Shown here one piece after another: positions 21,873-36,370 of a stretch of 64,000 bases of DNA (position 1 is the first letter of the stretch; the number at the start of each line of letters is the position of its first letter). The translations under genes were made by a program, and so were the position numbers. The notes under the pieces are model-generated. The model had not been told where the DNA came from, searched no databases, and saw only the letters and a list, made by a program, of their open reading frames with translations. The stretch comes from SAR202 cluster bacterium Io17-Chloro-G6 (lineage in GTDB: Bacteria > Chloroflexota > Dehalococcoidia > UBA3495). The stretch is from NCBI GenBank assembly GCA_002816585.1, contig MUCT01000041.1:49284-113283 (forward strand). Direction: 5' to 3'.

Positions 21873-24179
21873 ATGACGACCACAGAGCGGAACCTGGCAC
21901 AGGGTGCATTACAAGGCGTTCAAGTCCTGGAGTTTGGACAATACATCCCGGGACCGATGTTGGGGATGCTGTTAAGCGACCAGGGGGCTGACGTAATCAA
22001 GGTCGAACGCCCCGGGGGCGACCCTGCCCGCAGCGAGCCTGCCTTTGCTACTTGGAACCGGGGCAAACGCTCAGTGGTGCTGGACCTGAAGACCCCCGAA
22101 GGACAGACCGCCGCCGTGGGCCTGGCCAGGAAGGCCGACATAGTTATCGAGAATTACCGGCCCGGAGTGGCCGACCGCTTGGGCATCGGCTATGACGCCC
22201 TGTCCAAAGAAAACCCCCGATTGCTTTACTGCTCCATCCCCGGCTTCGGCGAAGACAGTCCCTACCGCAACGAACGCGGTTGGGAGGGCATTGTATCCGC
22301 TGCCACCGGGACCTACCAACATATCGACGGCGCCGACGAGCCGTTGTTCTTGCCCCTGCCCACGGCCAGCACCTTCGCCGCCATCGTGGCATCCGTCTCG
22401 GTAGCCATGGCGATCGTCGCCCGCGACCGGACCGGCAAAGGCCAGCGCATTGAAGTGCCGATGCACAGCGCCATGTTCTCGGCCATCGGGAGACACCTGG
22501 TCAAGCTTTATGACATCAACCCACCCGATCTGTTTGACCTGCCGCGGAACGTGATGTCTCACCAATACAAGTGCGCCGATGGCCGTTACTTCCAGTCCCA
22601 TGGCATGTATCAGCGCTTCGTGGGCCAGTTGATGACTGCCGCTGGTCGTCCTGAGTGGATCGAAGACTTGGAGGACCTCTACGGCGCCGAGGTTGCGCCG
22701 GAGACGGTGGCCATGTGGAAGGACCGGTTCGAAAATATGTATTTGGAGCGGACCGCCAAAGAATGGGAGGACGCCATCGCGGAGACCAAGGGTGTGGGCA
22801 CAATCTGTAAAACCGTCGATGAATGGCTGGTCCACGAGCACGCTATCGCCGGCAAGATGGTAACCGAGGTCGACGACGCCAAATACGGAAAGATGAAACA
22901 ACCCGGGGTCCAGGTCCGTCTGCGCGGGACACCTGGGGCGATTCAGGGGCGCGCTCCCACATTGGGAGAGCACACGTCTGAGATCTTGGCCGAGGCAAAT
23001 AACGGTCCGGGACGGCCCGTAACATACCAGGACGGCAGCGAAAACATCATGAGCGTCTTGGAGGGCGTCCGGGTGTTGGACCTGTGCATTGTCCTCGCCG
23101 GACCCACCTGTGGCCGGACCCTGGGCGAATTCGGCGCGGAAATCATCAAGATCGACGACCCGTCGCGTCCCTATGACATAGCTGGAAACACGGATGTAAA
23201 CCGGGGCAAGAGCAGCATCCAGATCAACCTCAAGACGGCAGAAGGGCTTGAAGTTTTCTATAAGCTGCTCGAAACCGCCGATGTAGTTGTGGAGAATAAC
23301 CGCAAGAGCAGCCTGGCCCGCCTTGGCATCAGCTACGAAGAAATGCGCAAGCGCAAACCAGAAATCATTCACGCCTCGCTCAACGCCTTCGGTTACGACG
23401 GTCCGTGGAGCGAACGGCCCGGATGGGAGCAATTGGCCCAGGCCACCAGCGGCATCCAGGTGCGCCGAGGCGGCCGTGACTCGGCTCCCAGGTTGCTGCC
23501 CTACCCCATGAATGACTACGGCACCGGACTGATGGGCGCCTACGCGGTGGCCCTGGCGATTCACGAACGCAACCGCACCGGCAAAGGCCAATCGGTTGAC
23601 AGCGGCCTGGCGTTGACTGCGGGTCTGCTTCAGTCGCCCTACTTCCTTGATTACGACGGGTACAAGCGGGACGAACCCGAGGGATTGGGTGTAAGGGGAT
23701 TCTCCGCAAAGTCCCGGCTTTACCGGGCTACAGACGGCTGGTTATTTTTCCATTGTCCCGACGATGGAGCCTGGGGTCGCCTCGCCGCGCTTTCTGACTT
23801 TGCGGAGTTGGACAATGGCAGTGATGATGCCTTGACTCAGTCGCTGGCGAAAATATTGGCTGGCAAAACCAGAGGGGAATGGGAGAAGGTAATCAACCCT
23901 ACCGGGGTCAGTGTGATTGCCAATCGAATGGTCGAAGAGTTCCGGGATGACGCCGATATCCGGAAGGCCGGCCTCATCGTGAGCCGGGACCATCCCGGCA
24001 TCGGAAATGCGGACCATCTGGGTTCGGTGGCCAAACTTTCCGAGACTCCCATGCGGGTCGGCCGGCCATCTCCACTGCTCGGCGCGGAAACCGACCAGAT
24101 CCTCACCGAGGCTGGTTACACAGGGGAGCAGATCGAGTCTCTCAAGTTGTCCGGAGCGGTGGTGCAACACCAAGGGTAG
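21873..24179 (+). CDS. Double-length (fused) family III CoA-transferase
   Basis: A 768-residue protein made of two tandem CaiB/BaiF-type CoA-transferase domains (about residues 10-380 and 385-760). Each has its own start motif (VLEFGQYIPGPMLGMLLSDQGADVIKVE; VLDLCIVLAGPTCGRTLGEFGAEIIKID) and its own RTGKGQ segment. In formyl-CoA transferase the catalytic Asp169 lies 21 residues before the TG of that segment. Here the matching residue is Ser166 in domain 1 and Asp548 in domain 2, so only the second domain looks catalytic. The protein probably moves CoA between carboxylic acids, with unknown substrates. It is monocistronic, with a strong terminator. Confidence 0.88.
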   Translation: MTTTERNLAQGALQGVQVLEFGQYIPGPMLGMLLSDQGADVIKVERPGGDPARSEPAFATWNRGKRSVVLDLKTPEGQTAAVGLARKADIVIENYRPGVADRLGIGYDALSKENPRLLYCSIPGFGEDSPYRNERGWEGIVSAATGTYQHIDGADEPLFLPLPTASTFAAIVASVSVAMAIVARDRTGKGQRIEVPMHSAMFSAIGRHLVKLYDINPPDLFDLPRNVMSHQYKCADGRYFQSHGMYQRFVGQLMTAAGRPEWIEDLEDLYGAEVAPETVAMWKDRFENMYLERTAKEWEDAIAETKGVGTICKTVDEWLVHEHAIAGKMVTEVDDAKYGKMKQPGVQVRLRGTPGAIQGRAPTLGEHTSEILAEANNGPGRPVTYQDGSENIMSVLEGVRVLDLCIVLAGPTCGRTLGEFGAEIIKIDDPSRPYDIAGNTDVNRGKSSIQINLKTAEGLEVFYKLLETADVVVENNRKSSLARLGISYEEMRKRKPEIIHASLNAFGYDGPWSERPGWEQLAQATSGIQVRRGGRDSAPRLLPYPMNDYGTGLMGAYAVALAIHERNRTGKGQSVDSGLALTAGLLQSPYFLDYDGYKRDEPEGLGVRGFSAKSRLYRATDGWLFFHCPDDGAWGRLAALSDFAELDNGSDDALTQSLAKILAGKTRGEWEKVINPTGVSVIANRMVEEFRDDADIRKAGLIVSRDHPGIGNADHLGSVAKLSETPMRVGRPSPLLGAETDQILTEAGYTGEQIESLKLSGAVVQHQG

Positions 24180-26344: not shown

Positions 26345-26489
26345 AAAGACCACAATTGCCGGCCGTTTGAAAATACGGTGGCTAGTCGAGATGAACATAG
26401 TGTGGCAGCCGCCTCCGGAACGTGCTAAACTGGCCCGGCGTCCGATCGCGTAGCCTTGAGGCGCGAAACCTCAGGTAGAAGAGGTCCTT

Positions 26490-28694
26490 TTGCTCCACAT
26501 CTACAACACCCTGGCAAAACGGGTGGAAGAAATCCATCCCACCACGCCGGGGCTCATCCAAATGTACACCTGCGGCCCAACCGTCTACCGCGATGCCCAC
26601 ATCGGCAACCTGCGCACCTATCTCATGGCCGATTGGGTCCGCCGATCGCTGATCCACAGTGGCCTGCAGGTAAAGCACATAAAAAACATCACCGACGTCG
26701 GCCACATGCGCCAGGAATTGGCCGAGGCGGGCGGCGACAAGATGATTATGGCCGCCCTGGCTGAAGGCAAGACTATTCAGGAAATCGCCGACCTCTACGC
26801 CGGACGATTCTTCCGCGACGAAGCACGTCTCAACATCATGGAGGCCACGGAATTTCCCTGGGCCAGTCATCACATCCCGGAAATGATCTCGATCAATGAA
26901 ACCTTGCTGGCCAACGGGCACGCCTATGAGAAGGGCGGCAACCTGTACTTCGATGTTCCCTCCTTCGAGGGCTACGGCAAACTCTCCAACAACATTGGCG
27001 GCGATCTGCTGGAAGGCGTCCGTTCCGAAGCCGACCCGCTGAAGCGCGACCCCAGAGATTTCACTCTTTGGAAGGCCGCCGAGCCGGGCCGAGACGTTAA
27101 ATGGGACAGCCCCTGGGGCCCAGGATTCCCCGGGTGGCACATCGAGTGTTCGGCCATGGCTTCCAAGTACTTGGGGGAGAGCTTCGATATCCACACCGGC
27201 GGCGTCGACAACGTATTCCCCCACCATGAAGACGAGATTGCCCAGAGCGAGGCCGCCTTCGGTCATCAACACGTTAACTACTGGATCCACGCTCAGCACC
27301 TGTTGGCAGACGGCGCCAAGATGGCCAAATCGGCGGGCAACGTTTTTCTCATTGAAGAATTGATTGAGCGGGGATTTTCGCCTCTTTCGTTCCGGTACCT
27401 GTGCATGACCATCCTCTACCGCCACCGCATGAATTTCACCTTCACGTCACTGAAGGCAGCGGAAAAGGCCCTGACCGGTCTACGGCAGCGGGTGTGGCTC
27501 TGGAGTCAGGAACCGGAGGTCAATGGGCATTCTTCGGAAATCGAGGAATACCGCCGGCGGTTCTGGGATACCGTGGAGACTGATTTGGACCTTCCAGGCG
27601 CTCTGGCCTTGACCTGGGAAATGGTCCGGTCCGAGTTGCCAGGACGCGCCAAGATGGACTTGCTGCTGGAGTTTGACCAGATGTTCGGCCTTGACCTGGA
27701 CAAGGCCCCCGCCGAGAACGCCGTGACGGCCGAAGTCACCGCTACTCTGGAAGTTCGGGGCGGCCACCGGGGACAGTCCGACTATTCCACCGCGGATTCC
27801 CTGAGGGGGCAGCTTGCCTCAGACGGATACCTGGTCCAAGACACGGTTAGCGGCACGCGAGCCCGGCCCAAGACACCCCTGGAATTGCGGCAAGAGAAAT
27901 GGGCCTCGGTGTCTTCTTCCCGGGAGGTGGAGTCCTACTTGGACCAGCCCTCCGAATTGGATTTCACCTTCATACTGAACGCTTACGGGTACCCCGGCGA
28001 CGTTCAGCGATGTGTGGAGGGCATGCTGCGCCACTCCGGCAGCCACTCCGTGGAGGCGATCGTAGTCGACAATGGATCAACCGACGGTACCGGAGAACTA
28101 TTGGAGGAGCTGCAAAGTCAGTATCCAGGGCTTCGGGTGGTCCATTGCGACCACGTGATCGGCGACGCCGCCAGCAAGAATATCGGCTTAAAACAGAGCC
28201 GTGGCCGCAACATAGTGGTCGTGGACGGCTCCGCCGAGATCACGGGTAATATCCTGGACCCTATCGCCCAGAAGCTTGAGGACCCGACGGTGGGCATCTT
28301 TGGCCCCTGGGGACTAAGTACCCCCGACATGCAGCACTTCCACGAAGAAGTTGATGAAGGTGACGCCGACGCCATGCAGGCATATTGCATGGCTTTTCGC
28401 CGGGAAACCGTAAACACCGTTGGGCTGATGCGTGAGTGCTTCCGGTTCTACCGGAACTTGGACATCGACTATTGCTTCCAGTTCAAGGACAAGGGTTTCC
28501 GGGTAGTGGCCGACTCCTCCCTCCCCTTGGTCCGCCACGAACACCGCCAGTGGACGGAATTGGACGACAACCAGCGTGACGAACTAAGCAGGAAGAACTT
28601 TGGGCGGTTCCTCAAGCGCTGGGGCAACCGCCCCGATTTGTTGATCGCCGCCGACGCTGTGGGGTTCGAGAACCAAGAACGGTTCCATCATTAG
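26490..28694 (+). CDS. cysS: Cysteinyl-tRNA synthetase fused to a family 2 glycosyltransferase
   Basis: One 734-residue frame with two enzymes. Residues 1-~465 are a class I CysRS: Cys28 of the zinc site in MYTCGPTVY, HIGN at 37-40 (a variant of HIGH), GWHIECSAM and HHEDEIAQ for zinc and substrate, and KMAKS at 277-281 (a variant of KMSKS). Residues ~491-720 form a GT-A fold glycosyltransferase: TFILNAYGYP, VDNGSTDGTGELL with Asp527, and a metal-site strand VVVDGSAEI with Asp579. A linker of about 25 residues joins them. The second part's donor and acceptor are unknown. The TTG start is preceded by an AGAGG site. Confidence 0.88.
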   Translation: MLHIYNTLAKRVEEIHPTTPGLIQMYTCGPTVYRDAHIGNLRTYLMADWVRRSLIHSGLQVKHIKNITDVGHMRQELAEAGGDKMIMAALAEGKTIQEIADLYAGRFFRDEARLNIMEATEFPWASHHIPEMISINETLLANGHAYEKGGNLYFDVPSFEGYGKLSNNIGGDLLEGVRSEADPLKRDPRDFTLWKAAEPGRDVKWDSPWGPGFPGWHIECSAMASKYLGESFDIHTGGVDNVFPHHEDEIAQSEAAFGHQHVNYWIHAQHLLADGAKMAKSAGNVFLIEELIERGFSPLSFRYLCMTILYRHRMNFTFTSLKAAEKALTGLRQRVWLWSQEPEVNGHSSEIEEYRRRFWDTVETDLDLPGALALTWEMVRSELPGRAKMDLLLEFDQMFGLDLDKAPAENAVTAEVTATLEVRGGHRGQSDYSTADSLRGQLASDGYLVQDTVSGTRARPKTPLELRQEKWASVSSSREVESYLDQPSELDFTFILNAYGYPGDVQRCVEGMLRHSGSHSVEAIVVDNGSTDGTGELLEELQSQYPGLRVVHCDHVIGDAASKNIGLKQSRGRNIVVVDGSAEITGNILDPIAQKLEDPTVGIFGPWGLSTPDMQHFHEEVDEGDADAMQAYCMAFRRETVNTVGLMRECFRFYRNLDIDYCFQFKDKGFRVVADSSLPLVRHEHRQWTELDDNQRDELSRKNFGRFLKRWGNRPDLLIAADAVGFENQERFHH

Positions 28695-29066: not shown

Positions 29067-30032
29067 ATGTCAGAGATTGCCGAAAGACTGCTGGCAGGCG
29101 AGCAAAGGGCGCTATCAAGGTTAATCACGCTGCTAGAGCGGGGGGACCCGGCGGCCGCCGAGGCAATGAAGGCAGTCGACGGGCATACCGGAAGGGCTTA
29201 CACGGTGGGAATCACCGGTCCTCCCGGTTCGGGAAAGAGCACCATTGTCGACCAACTGACGAAGCTGGTACGGGAGACAGGCTCAAAAGTGGGCATCATC
29301 GCCGTCGATCCTACCAGCCCATTTAGCGGCGGCGCCATATTGGGTGACCGTATTCGGATGCAGCGCCATTATCTGGATTCCGGGGTCTTTATCCGCAGTG
29401 TGGCTACGCGAGGCCAAGGGGGCGGGTTACCTCGAATTGTGAAAAGCATGGTTCGGGCGCTGGATGCCGCCGGGACCGACCTGATACTCGTCGAGACGGT
29501 GGGTGTCGGGCAGACTGAACTGGGCATCATAAGTGTGGCGGATACAGTGCTGGTCACGTTGAATCCCGAGTCGGGTGACGCGATCCAAACACTGAAGGCG
29601 GGAGTGATGGAGATCGCCGATGTTTACGTGGTAAACAAGGCGGACCGTGACGGCGCAAACCAAATGGCGACAGCCATCACGGGTATGCTCCACATGGCCA
29701 TGGTCAGCCCCAAATGGAACCCGCCGGTAATGCTGACCACTGCCAACACCGGTCAAGGCATTGAGGACCTCTGGCTGAAAATGCAGGACCACCGGGAGTT
29801 CCTCACCACCGGCGGCGGCCTAGAAGGCCGCCGGGAGACGCGGCGCAAACGAGAATTTTTGGAGGCGGTGGAAGAGGTGTTGGCGAAGCGGCTCCGCGAC
29901 AAGGTGGAAAACGACCCAGACCTTAACGCTACTTTGGAAAAAGTGGCGGCAAAAGAGACTGATCCCTACTCCGCGGCGCTGGAGTACCTGGAATCTTCTC
30001 TGTTTTCATCGGACTGGCTTAATTCCCAATAA
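29067..30032 (+). CDS. meaB: MeaB/ArgK-type GTPase (methylmalonyl-CoA mutase chaperone)
   Basis: A 321-residue G3E-family GTPase. It has the P-loop GITGPPGSGKST near residues 50-61, the switch block VDPTSPFSGGAILGDRIRM, the G3 region LILVETVGVGQTE, and NKAD for guanine recognition. MeaB guards and reloads B12-dependent methylmalonyl-CoA mutase or its relatives. No mutase genes are adjacent here, so the client enzyme must be encoded elsewhere. C-terminal helices for dimerisation are present. Confidence 0.92.
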   Translation: MSEIAERLLAGEQRALSRLITLLERGDPAAAEAMKAVDGHTGRAYTVGITGPPGSGKSTIVDQLTKLVRETGSKVGIIAVDPTSPFSGGAILGDRIRMQRHYLDSGVFIRSVATRGQGGGLPRIVKSMVRALDAAGTDLILVETVGVGQTELGIISVADTVLVTLNPESGDAIQTLKAGVMEIADVYVVNKADRDGANQMATAITGMLHMAMVSPKWNPPVMLTTANTGQGIEDLWLKMQDHREFLTTGGGLEGRRETRRKREFLEAVEEVLAKRLRDKVENDPDLNATLEKVAAKETDPYSAALEYLESSLFSSDWLNSQ

Positions 30033-30151: not shown

Positions 30152-30790
30152 ATGTCGGTACTAGGTATTGATTTGAGGGCTTCTAGCAAAAAGCCCTCCG
30201 CGGTAGCCATATTAGACTCAGATTCCCGTTTGACCGAGCTGGGAAGTTGCCACAAAGACAGCGAATTGACTGAACTGGTGGGCAAGGTCCGGCCAGACTT
30301 GATCGCCATCGGTGCGCCGTTAAATCTGCCGTCTGGGTTTTGCTGCTTGGACAAATCCTGCGATTGCCAATTCTCTATATCCGGCAGGAAAGGCCGTTTG
30401 CTCGAGCTCGAATTGGCCAAGATGGGGATTAGTTGTTTCTACACAAACAAGGGTTCCATCATCAGGGAACTGATCTACCGTGGGATACGATTGAGCCAAT
30501 ATCTCAAGGTCGAGGGATATAACGTCATTGAGGTATATCCATACGCCACCAAGATGCTGCTCTTTGGAGATAAGTTGCCGCCAAAGAACAGCGCAGCCAG
30601 CCTGAGCTACATGATTAGCCATCTGACCCCCTTGGTCTCAGGCATGGAGGACCACACAGACGACCTGGACCGGAACACCTGCGATGCCATAATCAACGCC
30701 TACACTGGACAGTTGCACGCCCAGGCGGATACCGATGTCTTGGGAGACCCAGAGGAGGGCATGCTGGTATTACCTAAGCTACCAATTTAA
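30152..30790 (+). CDS. DUF429 family protein (RNase H-like fold)
   Basis: A 212-residue DUF429 protein: GIDLRASSKKPSAVAIL at the start, AIGAPLNLP, EVYPYATKM, and a late DRNTCDAIINAYTG. The fold is predicted to resemble RNase H and putative nucleases, but no activity is established. A Cys cluster (CCLDKSCDC, residues about 69-77) is present. The gene is single and ends in a strong terminator. Confidence 0.78.
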   Translation: MSVLGIDLRASSKKPSAVAILDSDSRLTELGSCHKDSELTELVGKVRPDLIAIGAPLNLPSGFCCLDKSCDCQFSISGRKGRLLELELAKMGISCFYTNKGSIIRELIYRGIRLSQYLKVEGYNVIEVYPYATKMLLFGDKLPPKNSAASLSYMISHLTPLVSGMEDHTDDLDRNTCDAIINAYTGQLHAQADTDVLGDPEEGMLVLPKLPI

Positions 30791-34155: not shown

Positions 34156-35385
34156 CTAGACCGGGGATACCGGCTCGGCCAGCGCCGCTTCAGATGAGAA
34201 TACCTCCGCCGGCACAGGCGCCCTTGCCATTCGCGCCAACAGCGGGTTCACCAGTCTTAGCGCTCCGCCCAAGGTTGGGTGGACCATGATCTTCCCAATC
34301 ATCGAGCTATGCCAGTCGAAAGAGACACCCGGGGAATTGGCCAACTCAGCTACGAAGCCGTTCTTGCCGGCTTGGTGCACGAGGGAGTTGATCTGCCCGT
34401 CACCCAAGAATTCAAACGCTCGACGGGCCGAATAACCCACTTCCAGTTCATTGGATAGCAGGTTCTTCCACTCTTTCTGATACCTTCCCAAATGAGTAGC
34501 GGACAGCTTGTCGTCGCGCAGGGCTTGGTCCAGCGCCCCTGAGGCGATCTCGCTGGCCAAGAGTGAGTAAAAGATTCCTCCGCCGGTGGTCGGCTTTACC
34601 TGACCGGCGGCGTCGCCCACCACTATTACCCGATCGGTATAGGTTTTGCGCAACGGCCGAAGAGGAATCCCCCAACGGGTGACTTTGGATACAAGTTCCT
34701 TGATTCTTCCGTCGGCCTTCCGTGCGGAGATAAATTCCACGAACCGTTGCGTCGCATCCTTGCGCACCAACAGGCCGGCCAATGCGTATCCCGGTTGAGT
34801 CGGGACCAGCCAAGCAAAAAACCCTGGCGCCACTTTGCGGCCCAAAAATACTTCAACTTCGTCCAAGCCGTCGGTTTCAACCAAGGCCTGGATGCCGACT
34901 ACGTAATCTGAAGCTTCGCCCAATCCCAATTGCCGGTTCAGCTGGCTGCCGAATCCCGCGGCTAAGACCAAAGCCCTAGCTTCCGATATGCCATCATCGG
35001 TAGCCACCATGACACGGTCCTCAAGTTGGTCCACCCGAACCACCCGCCGGCCGAGCAGATATTGGGCTCCGGCTACTCTTGCCCGGTCGGCAAACGAGGA
35101 TACATAGTCCACTCGGTTGATCACGCGGGCTACAGGGTGTGGGGTTTCAAATCTGAGACTTTCAGAAGAAGGAGATACTACCCGGGCCGAGTTGATCTCT
35201 CGGTAGACCAGCGCTGGATCGATGGGGTAACGGCGGAAACATTCCTCGCCGACCAGACCCGTGCACAGTTTATCGCCGATATTTTCCCTCGAGTCGATGA
35301 CCGTAACGCCATAGCCCTGGCAGGCCAAAGACAGGGCGGCATTATTGCCAGCGGGACCGGCTCCCACCACGATCACATCTTCCAA
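34156..35385 (-). CDS. Geranylgeranyl-reductase-like FAD-dependent oxidoreductase
   Basis: A 409-residue flavoprotein of the geranylgeranyl reductase/PHBH group. It has the FAD motif VIVVGAGPAGNNAALSLA at the N-terminus, the RVDYVSSFADRA strand, and the second FAD motif RVIVVGDAAGQVKPTTGGGI. These enzymes reduce isoprenoid double bonds of lipids, quinones or pigments, and the substrate is open. The frame extends another 429 nt upstream into the divergent fadR gene. TTG 35385 is preferred, because a GAGGT site precedes it and the family begins there. Confidence 0.8.
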   Translation of the reverse strand: MEDVIVVGAGPAGNNAALSLACQGYGVTVIDSRENIGDKLCTGLVGEECFRRYPIDPALVYREINSARVVSPSSESLRFETPHPVARVINRVDYVSSFADRARVAGAQYLLGRRVVRVDQLEDRVMVATDDGISEARALVLAAGFGSQLNRQLGLGEASDYVVGIQALVETDGLDEVEVFLGRKVAPGFFAWLVPTQPGYALAGLLVRKDATQRFVEFISARKADGRIKELVSKVTRWGIPLRPLRKTYTDRVIVVGDAAGQVKPTTGGGIFYSLLASEIASGALDQALRDDKLSATHLGRYQKEWKNLLSNELEVGYSARRAFEFLGDGQINSLVHQAGKNGFVAELANSPGVSFDWHSSMIGKIMVHPTLGGALRLVNPLLARMARAPVPAEVFSSEAALAEPVSPV

Positions 35386-35573
35386 ATTGAGCTTACCTCG
35401 ACAAAGCCCCAGGGGCCGGGGCCGGGTTGCCACGCGGCAATTATACTCCCAGACTGTGCAATCAGTCAGGCCGCGAGGCGGGCTAATTATGTTCTTATTG
35501 TTAGCTGACCACCGCCGGATCACGGGGCCGTCTGGAGTAAATTGCGATGTAATGCGGCCAACCGGTCCACGCC

Positions 35574-35601
35574 TTGACAACGCCTGGCGGGAGAGTATAA
35601 T
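35574..35601 (+). promoter_or_regulatory. Near-consensus sigma70 promoter of the FadR-type gene
   Basis: Perfect TTGACA (35574-35579) and perfect TATAAT (35596-35601) are separated by 16 nt. Transcription should start near 35608. Confidence 0.85.
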
Positions 35602-35614
35602 TTGGCCGAACCCC

Positions 35615-35631
35615 AATTGGTCAGACCACTT
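35615..35631 (+). promoter_or_regulatory. FadR-type operator AATTGGTCAGACCACTT
   Basis: The core TGGTCAGACCA (35618-35628) is palindromic and matches the known FadR-site core TGGTCNGACCA. It lies just after the predicted transcription start and 8 nt before the ATG, where a bound repressor would block its own gene. Confidence 0.75.
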
Positions 35632-35638
35632 ATAACGG

Positions 35639-36370
35639 ATGCTAATGCAGCCCGAATTACATAACCTCCAGGGCCAGCGGCGCCATGAATCCATCGTACA
35701 GCGGTTCCATGCGTTGATACAGGAGGGGAGCCTGGAGCACGGCGCCAAGCTCCCAGCGGAACGTGTGCTGGCCGAGCAGCTAAAGGTGAGCCGCAGTTCC
35801 GTTAGGGAGGCCATTCGGACTCTGGAGCTTCAGGGCTTGGTGGTGAGCAAACACGGTTCCGGCACCTTCATCAACACCCAGAGCTTGGACGCCGTAGCTA
35901 CCTTGATGACCTCCAACCTGGGCGAGGGAATGGGGGCGGGCGAGGGCCAACTCCGGGATATCTTTGAAGTCCGCCACCTACTTGAACCCCAACTCGCAGC
36001 TTTGGCTGCCCAGAGAGCGACTCCAGAGGATGTGGAACGCCTGGCTGCCATATTGGAAGAACAGAAACATCAGATCATAGAGGGCGAGACCGGGGTGGAC
36101 GCCGACACGGAATTCCATTTTGCTTTGGCGACCGCCACCCACAACACCGCTCTCGTCAAAGTGGTGAGCGCGGTGGAGGATGTCTTGCGGCAGTCTCGGG
36201 ACCAGTCTCTGCAGCAACCGGGTAGGCCCGAACGCTCCCTTGCATCCCATCACCGGATTCTAGAGACGGTCCGGTCCGGAGATCACCGGGGAGCTCTGGA
36301 GGCCATGGAACACCATCTGACCGCGGTGGAGCCGTATGCGGTCTTCCCTAGCGCCTCCGTCGATAGATAA
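35639..36370 (+). CDS. GntR-family (FadR subfamily, FCD domain) transcriptional regulator
   Basis: A 243-residue regulator. The GntR winged helix (residues about 15-80) has LPAERVLAEQLKVSRSSVREAIRTLELQGLVVSKHGSGTF (split over residues about 38-77). The all-helical FCD domain (about 100-225) carries the usual Asp/His metal-site residues around DADTEFHFALATATHN and HHRILE. FadR-subfamily members sense acids such as fatty-acyl-CoA, lactate or pyruvate. A near-consensus promoter and a FadR-type operator precede it. It lies 104 nt before a 2-oxoacid:ferredoxin oxidoreductase operon, the likely target. Confidence 0.9.
   Translation: MLMQPELHNLQGQRRHESIVQRFHALIQEGSLEHGAKLPAERVLAEQLKVSRSSVREAIRTLELQGLVVSKHGSGTFINTQSLDAVATLMTSNLGEGMGAGEGQLRDIFEVRHLLEPQLAALAAQRATPEDVERLAAILEEQKHQIIEGETGVDADTEFHFALATATHNTALVKVVSAVEDVLRQSRDQSLQQPGRPERSLASHHRILETVRSGDHRGALEAMEHHLTAVEPYAVFPSASVDR

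Follow-up and report, generated by a model that had tools for sequence, protein, structure and literature searches.

A conserved fusion of a second cysteinyl-tRNA synthetase with a glycosyltransferase-like domain in SAR202 and other Chloroflexota: a candidate tRNACys-directed enzyme

Why should a cysteinyl-tRNA synthetase (CysRS) carry a glycosyltransferase (GT) at its end? The question is raised by a gene in the window, as we call the whole 64,000-nucleotide stretch analyzed here, from SAR202 cluster bacterium Io17-Chloro-G6 (assembly GCA_002816585.1, contig MUCT01000041.1). SAR202 is a marine group, and most of what is known of it comes from metagenomes. The gene encodes a CysRS, including the mini-domain that reads the anticodon (CysS_C), followed by a GT2-like domain (Table 1). 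We propose, tentatively and with somewhat less than even confidence, that the product is a second CysRS paralogue whose C-terminal half, CysS_C plus GT, would act as a tRNACys-directed glycosyltransferase. A broader version is possible but more doubtful: a widespread Chloroflexota family of tRNACys-specific GTs, built from a G34-reading mini-domain and a GT-A domain, would glycosylate tRNACys and be fused to a dedicated CysRS in SAR202 and other lineages.

What is the protein made of? The gene is a single open frame with a TTG start, and its start residue is common to 20 of 21 aligned relatives, P0114 starting one later. Profile matches lie above their cut-offs for the synthetase (PF01406, 317 bits against 27; TIGR00435, 395.1 against 340) and for the GT (PF00535, 54.9 bits against 23.3, residues 495-605), so that a complete CysRS does stand in one uninterrupted frame with a GT2-like domain, as a preliminary description of this DNA had claimed; the CGPTVY, HIGN, KMAKS and VDNGSTDGTG signatures that it listed are all present. 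C28, C220, H245 and E249 stand at the positions of the zinc ligands and presumably bind zinc here. A predicted full-length model could be superposed on E. coli CysRS (1u0b) across residues 1-461. The C-terminal domain is predicted to have a GT-A fold; the fold comparison made with the full-length model was filled by synthetases. Within the GT, D527 sits in DNGSTDGT, and D579-x-S-x-E583 occupies the DXD position. Judged by sequence, the protein has the features of bacterial CysRS (cysS; E. coli 1li5/1u0b, Borrelia 3sp1), with complete catalytic, helical and anticodon-reading regions together with the zinc ligands, HIGN and KMAKS. It is best described as a CysRS paralogue to which something new has been appended, the GT2-like domain, and this domain sets it apart from those enzymes.

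Is this arrangement peculiar to one contig? When the GT part served as a protein query, 1203 matches were obtained, and 112 of the 120 listed contain both PF01406 and PF00535, the remaining eight being 407-462 residues long; other protein searches gave 120 listed matches each, of 592 and of 961. All named organisms among the matches listed are Chloroflexota. A scan of species genomes yielded 174 relatives; in the best 80, whose titles name SAR202, Dehalococcoidia or Chloroflexi/Chloroflexota, CysRS and GT share one frame in 79 loci, a few of which run into a contig end, and in the exception (L077) a contig end has removed the CysRS part. The fusion thus recurs in related genomes and, by these counts, is old and conserved; a sequencing error joining two genes, for which the preliminary description had allowed, becomes very unlikely. 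Farther afield, in a sample of 301 Chloroflexota genomes, the best match to the GT profile reached E <= 1e-30 in 83, of which 80 were searched with TIGR00435 and 18 of these searched again; at least 36 of the 301 carry a clean single-frame CysRS plus GT by hand count (G001 included; G149 and G189 were set aside for a stop within the match, and each has a separate CysRS). Among 110 rows of fused genes (108 distinct frames; duplicate rows are L001/L081, L101/L135, L105/L137 and L103/L139), the synthetase active site is well kept: C28 in 107 (two gaps, one His), C220, H245 and E249 in 109, the H, G and N of HIGN in 108, and K-M-x-K-S in 109. Mean pairwise identity over 33 fused proteins is 64% in the catalytic part, 57% in the GT and 33% in CysS_C. 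The NCBI records among the matches carry the plain name 'cysteine--tRNA ligase', so that such genomes can seem to hold two ordinary cysS genes.

Does the fused gene provide the housekeeping enzyme? No other CysRS lies within the 64-kb window. A standalone CysRS was found besides the fused copy in all 26 related genomes searched with TIGR00435, and it scores higher (439-523 bits) than the fused one (379-427 bits). Among the 36 cleanly fused Chloroflexota genomes, 29 have a separate full-length CysRS, four (G051, G246, G277, G298) only CysRS pieces beside the fusion, and three (G040, G163, G238, of unstated completeness) yielded no separate CysRS. A CysRS tree of 95 rows places all 48 fused rows together on one side of a branch (support 100/99) and groups 20 standalone rows of SAR202, drawn from 20 of those 26 genomes, in the other half (99/97); five standalone rows in which the script found no start motif were omitted. 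These separate deep clades imply that fused and standalone CysRS are old paralogues. The fused protein further departs from ordinary bacterial CysRS in that relatives hold it in addition to a standalone CysRS from a different deep clade. The role of sole housekeeping cysS, which the preliminary description had proposed to check, is rejected by this proxy. That description had also named, as a possible refutation, a separate cysS with the present copy decaying: the separate gene does exist in relatives, but decay does not, zinc ligands, HIGN and KMxKS being kept almost throughout. In sequence terms the fused gene is neither a housekeeping gene nor a decaying one, but a paralogue that has been conserved. 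One standalone gene deserves a remark of its own: in G006 (L126:4587-6479) a single 630-codon frame is matched in two stretches, at 475 bits together, and the gap between them may represent an insertion.

How might such a paralogue see its tRNA? With the CysS_C of the window aligned to E. coli CysRS to set the register, six of its 56 columns are invariant in the 33 fused proteins, R423, R427, D436 and D451 among them, despite the low identity noted above. Across the 110 fused rows, R423, an aromatic residue at 432 and D436 are kept in all, and R427 in 109 (one Lys). Asp451 is a further probable contact to tRNACys. Excerpts of a study of E. coli CysRS describe bonds of Arg427 and Asp436 to G34 of tRNACys, stacking of Trp432 on G34, and water-mediated contacts by Asp436/Arg423 (PMC12684709). 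CysS_C thus appears, in fused proteins, to be a fast-evolving domain whose G34-reading residues are kept. The GT is likewise conserved in the fused lineage, with 33 of 232 columns invariant in the 33 proteins and D579, D658, H685 and W688 present in 110 of 110 rows.

The reader and the GT also occur as a pair of their own. Chloroflexota contain proteins with the same GT and CysS_C that are devoid of the catalytic CysRS part, 315-334 residues long in named organisms and 295-644 in sampled open frames. The named carriers are Dictyobacter vulcani, D. alpinus, D. formicarum, D. aurantiacus, Ktedonosporobacter rubrisoli and a Limnocylindrales metagenome-assembled genome, all of them Chloroflexota (by look-up for Dictyobacter and Limnocylindrales). 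After L167 and other weak matches had been dropped, 31 standalone rows were left, of which 30 were usable once L077 was set aside; L096 is probably a fused gene clipped by a contig end, leaving 29 clean rows. R423, R427, D436, D451 and an aromatic residue at 432 (W in 12, Y in 10, F in 8) are kept in all 30. In 14 genomes, all 18 CysS_C matches above the Pfam cut-off fall in CysRS, fused or CysS_C-GT frames, and seven of 18 weaker ones lie elsewhere. Since reader and GT remain together even in proteins that have no synthetase part, the persistent unit is a tRNACys reader plus a GT, and the suggestion that the synthetase merely tethers an unrelated enzyme fits poorly. An unrooted GT tree, which omitted duplicates and most SAR202 rows, needs three changes between fused and standalone forms, one of them due to L096. 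Synthetases with extra domains are familiar, but our literature searches turned up no account of a reader and GT united on a CysRS, or of the standalone pair; the standalone proteins would be a new observation, and the fused CysRS possibly has a new function.

We envision a scenario whereby the reader grips tRNACys(GCA) by G34 and offers it to the GT, which would move a sugar from a nucleotide-sugar onto the tRNA. Because the reader holds that end, the site would most likely lie within the anticodon loop or close to it. Since the fused polypeptide could charge the tRNA as well, one dedicated enzyme would both produce and charge a sugar-bearing tRNACys. The scenario is drawn from comparison: the CysRS active site, the anticodon pocket and the GT residues of the fused lineage are conserved, relatives hold a separate standalone CysRS, and reader and GT occur together without a synthetase, which suggests sugar transfer to, or at, tRNACys. 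One tRNACys site was found in each of 19 genomes out of 19, and ARAGORN called all of them tRNACys(GCA). A second tRNACys was seen in none of the 19 with our search pattern, which required A37 and A38, so that, within the reach of the search, the two synthetases share one tRNACys gene.

Known systems offer partial parallels. GluQ-RS is a class I synthetase paralogue that modifies tRNA and is not known to have an anticodon domain; the fused protein would resemble it in being such a paralogue in tRNA-modifying use, but in the present family no part persists more than the anticodon reader. The animal enzymes QTGAL and QTMAN place a sugar on an anticodon-loop nucleoside, a likeness of function, and their sugars sit on queuosine of tRNATyr and tRNAAsp. 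The excerpted text of PMC12518689 likewise describes tRNATyr and tRNAAsp of animals as bearing queuosine with a sugar attached, and gives queuosine in the tRNAs for His, Asn, Tyr and Asp, not Cys. No description of a CysRS-glycosyltransferase fusion was found in the open-licence PMC literature, judged by titles and abstract starts, in keeping with the earlier remark that no function is established for it; 'glycosyl' does not occur in the portions of PMC5424206 and PMC8762117 consulted. If the GT does act on tRNACys, this would to our knowledge be the first system for tRNA glycosylation found in bacteria, and would open that subject together with a possible role for it in SAR202, whether in decoding or in the use of cysteine. 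Since named Ktedonobacteria (Dictyobacter, Ktedonosporobacter) carry the standalone form, the idea is directly testable.

Several observations weigh against a tRNACys-directed glycosyltransferase. Conserved anticodon contacts would argue for tRNA binding at most, not for the tRNA as acceptor. CysS_C falls under its Pfam cut-off (PF23493, 23 bits) in all three fused proteins scanned, at 14.3 bits in the window protein and 15.3 and 17.2 in two others; four standalone proteins gave 28.1 and 29.6, over the cut-off, and 21.0 and 22.5, just under it. Charging and GT do not have to sit on one chain, since G141, G221 and G304 each have a full-length CysRS gene next to, and convergent with, a separate CysS_C-GT gene; the CysRS of these genomes groups next to the fused clade with weak support (91/70). 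The search pattern's demand for A37 and A38 could itself have missed variants of tRNACys. The frequent neighbors scanned, which were counted over 81 stretches (80 loci and the window) and scanned with Pfam apart from a frequent cluster at window 34156-35814, included no gene for tRNA modification; in other lineages, ten frequent neighbor clusters were scanned. Finally, the GT itself raises doubt. The DXD place reads D-x-S-x-E: in the 110 fused rows the first Asp is kept in 110, the second acidic residue is replaced (by S in 105), and a Glu follows two positions on in 108. This feature, and the tRNACys anticodon reader that precedes the domain, distinguish it from known GT-A glycosyltransferases (PF00535; by fold GalNAc-T2, 6nqt; chondroitin polymerase, 2z86; SpsA, 1h7l). 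Among the 30 standalone rows, moreover, D527 is kept in only 14, D579 in 27, E583 in 24, D658 in 25, and H685 and W688 in 13 each, which makes catalysis doubtful for part of the family.

The same observations feed the strongest alternative, which we consider unlikely but serious. The GT might not be, or no longer be, a transferase; as a sugar-nucleotide sensor or docking platform it might regulate or localize the second CysRS, the standalone proteins might merely bind tRNACys, and the fused protein would be a condition-specific spare CysRS. Retention of the CysRS active-site residues would fit a spare enzyme, as would the D-x-S-x-E and the erosion of GT residues in standalone proteins whose reader residues do not erode. 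Yet in the fused lineage the GT is conserved, both in overall identity and in its invariant residues, beyond what docking alone should need. As to particular members, the standalone CysS_C-GTs L163:5483-6490 and L165:4624-5661 have eroded GT motifs and intact G34-reading residues, and may possibly be pseudo-glycosyltransferases that merely bind tRNACys.

Alternatively, the GT may act on the cargo, glycosylating cysteine, at its thiol or its amino group, while it is bound in Cys-tRNACys (or Cys-AMP); the resulting glycosyl-cysteine would enter translation or a peptide, or be exported. This would account for charging and GT on one chain in the fused lineage and for the retained recognition of tRNACys. 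We regard it as improbable, because the reader holds the anticodon end, far from the CCA end, the standalone proteins would have to rely on another CysRS, and no modified-cysteine genes were found among the frequent neighbors scanned. Resembling it in improbability is a MshC-like activity, in which the CysRS-type domain would join cysteine to a GT-made sugar to yield a low-molecular-weight thiol, tRNA reading being a relic. The window protein scores 207.3 bits with the MshC model (TIGR03447), far under the cut-off of 485.1, and it has retained an anticodon domain with its G34 residues conserved; MshC, the mycothiol cysteine ligase, is not known to have that domain, and its chains (3c8z, 8hfm) align only to residue 403. 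No thiol gene was seen among the frequent neighbors scanned. A mycothiol-type ligase was rejected on the failed model and the retained domain, and the thiol or cell-surface role once suggested for the fusion gains no support from these results, although a ManC-type gene does occur near Ktedonobacterial CysS_C-GT genes (see below). Many Chloroflexota genomes, furthermore, hold a truncated CysRS with no anticodon domain. All five scanned (Table 1) reach 349-375 bits against the MshC model, short of its cut-off of 485, and 359-415 bits against the CysRS model, past its cut-off of 340; all 11 rows form one clade (100/99), and such genes co-occur with the fused one, for example in G076, G094, G118 and G142. 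The presence of this separate, more MshC-like paralogue weakens the idea of the fused protein as a thiol ligase. According to excerpts of a commentary, novel thiols have been detected in Chloroflexus aurantiacus (PMC6336425). The truncated CysRS is a candidate ligase for a novel thiol. Last, an assembly error or decaying duplicate, for which only the second cysS in relatives speaks, has next to no probability and is rejected, given the shared frame, the paired domains and the retained active sites.

Table 1. Positions of the fused gene, its parts and related features (window coordinates unless a locus is named)
Feature	Position	Strand	Basis or marks
Fused gene, CysRS (with CysS_C) + GT2-like glycosyltransferase, 734 aa	26490..28694	+	Open reading frame and profile matches
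AGAGG, Shine-Dalgarno-like, 5 bases upstream of TTG	26480..26484	+	Sequence inspection
CysRS catalytic + helical part, residues 1-400	26490..27689	+	CGPTVY 28-33, HIGN 37-40, KMAKS 277-281
CysS_C anticodon-reading mini-domain, residues 405-460	27702..27869	+	R423, R427, Y432, D436, D451
Linker CysS_C-GT, residues 461-488	27870..27953	+	1/28 columns invariant; helix 463-470, then mainly coil
GT2-like domain, residues 489-720	27954..28649	+	D527, D579-x-S-x-E583, D658, H683-E-H685-R-x-W688
meaB, downstream, commonest neighbor (42/81 stretches, same strand)	29067..30032	+	Neighbor counts; context only
Truncated CysRS, examples	L138:8577-9839, L141:7762-9009, L148:7929-9194, L131:4243-5562, L136:7833-9455		

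What lies around the gene? Besides MeaB, the frequent neighbors are Band_7, NfeD, CoA-transferase III, FAD oxidoreductase, pyruvate kinase and S30AE ribosomal proteins, other metabolic genes, and two clusters with no Pfam match; they are largely metabolic and mostly shared by descent. A 768-residue frame with two CoA-transferase family III stretches (window 21873-24179, +) recurs in 33 of the 81 stretches, and a 212-residue protein with no Pfam match (window 30152-30790, +) in 31. The fusion's two halves stand as separate, convergent neighbor genes, a full-length CysRS of the fused type and a CysS_C-GT, at L154:3731-6942, L181:2316-3980 and L182:3629-5254, with the GT gene in the same loci. 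In all five Ktedonobacterial CysS_C-GT loci, a ManC-type nucleotidyltransferase gene lies some kb from the GT (L146:15888-16973; the same cluster in L142, L144, L151 and L152); as a maker of nucleotide-sugars it could possibly be a donor-sugar link, or it could reflect plain synteny.
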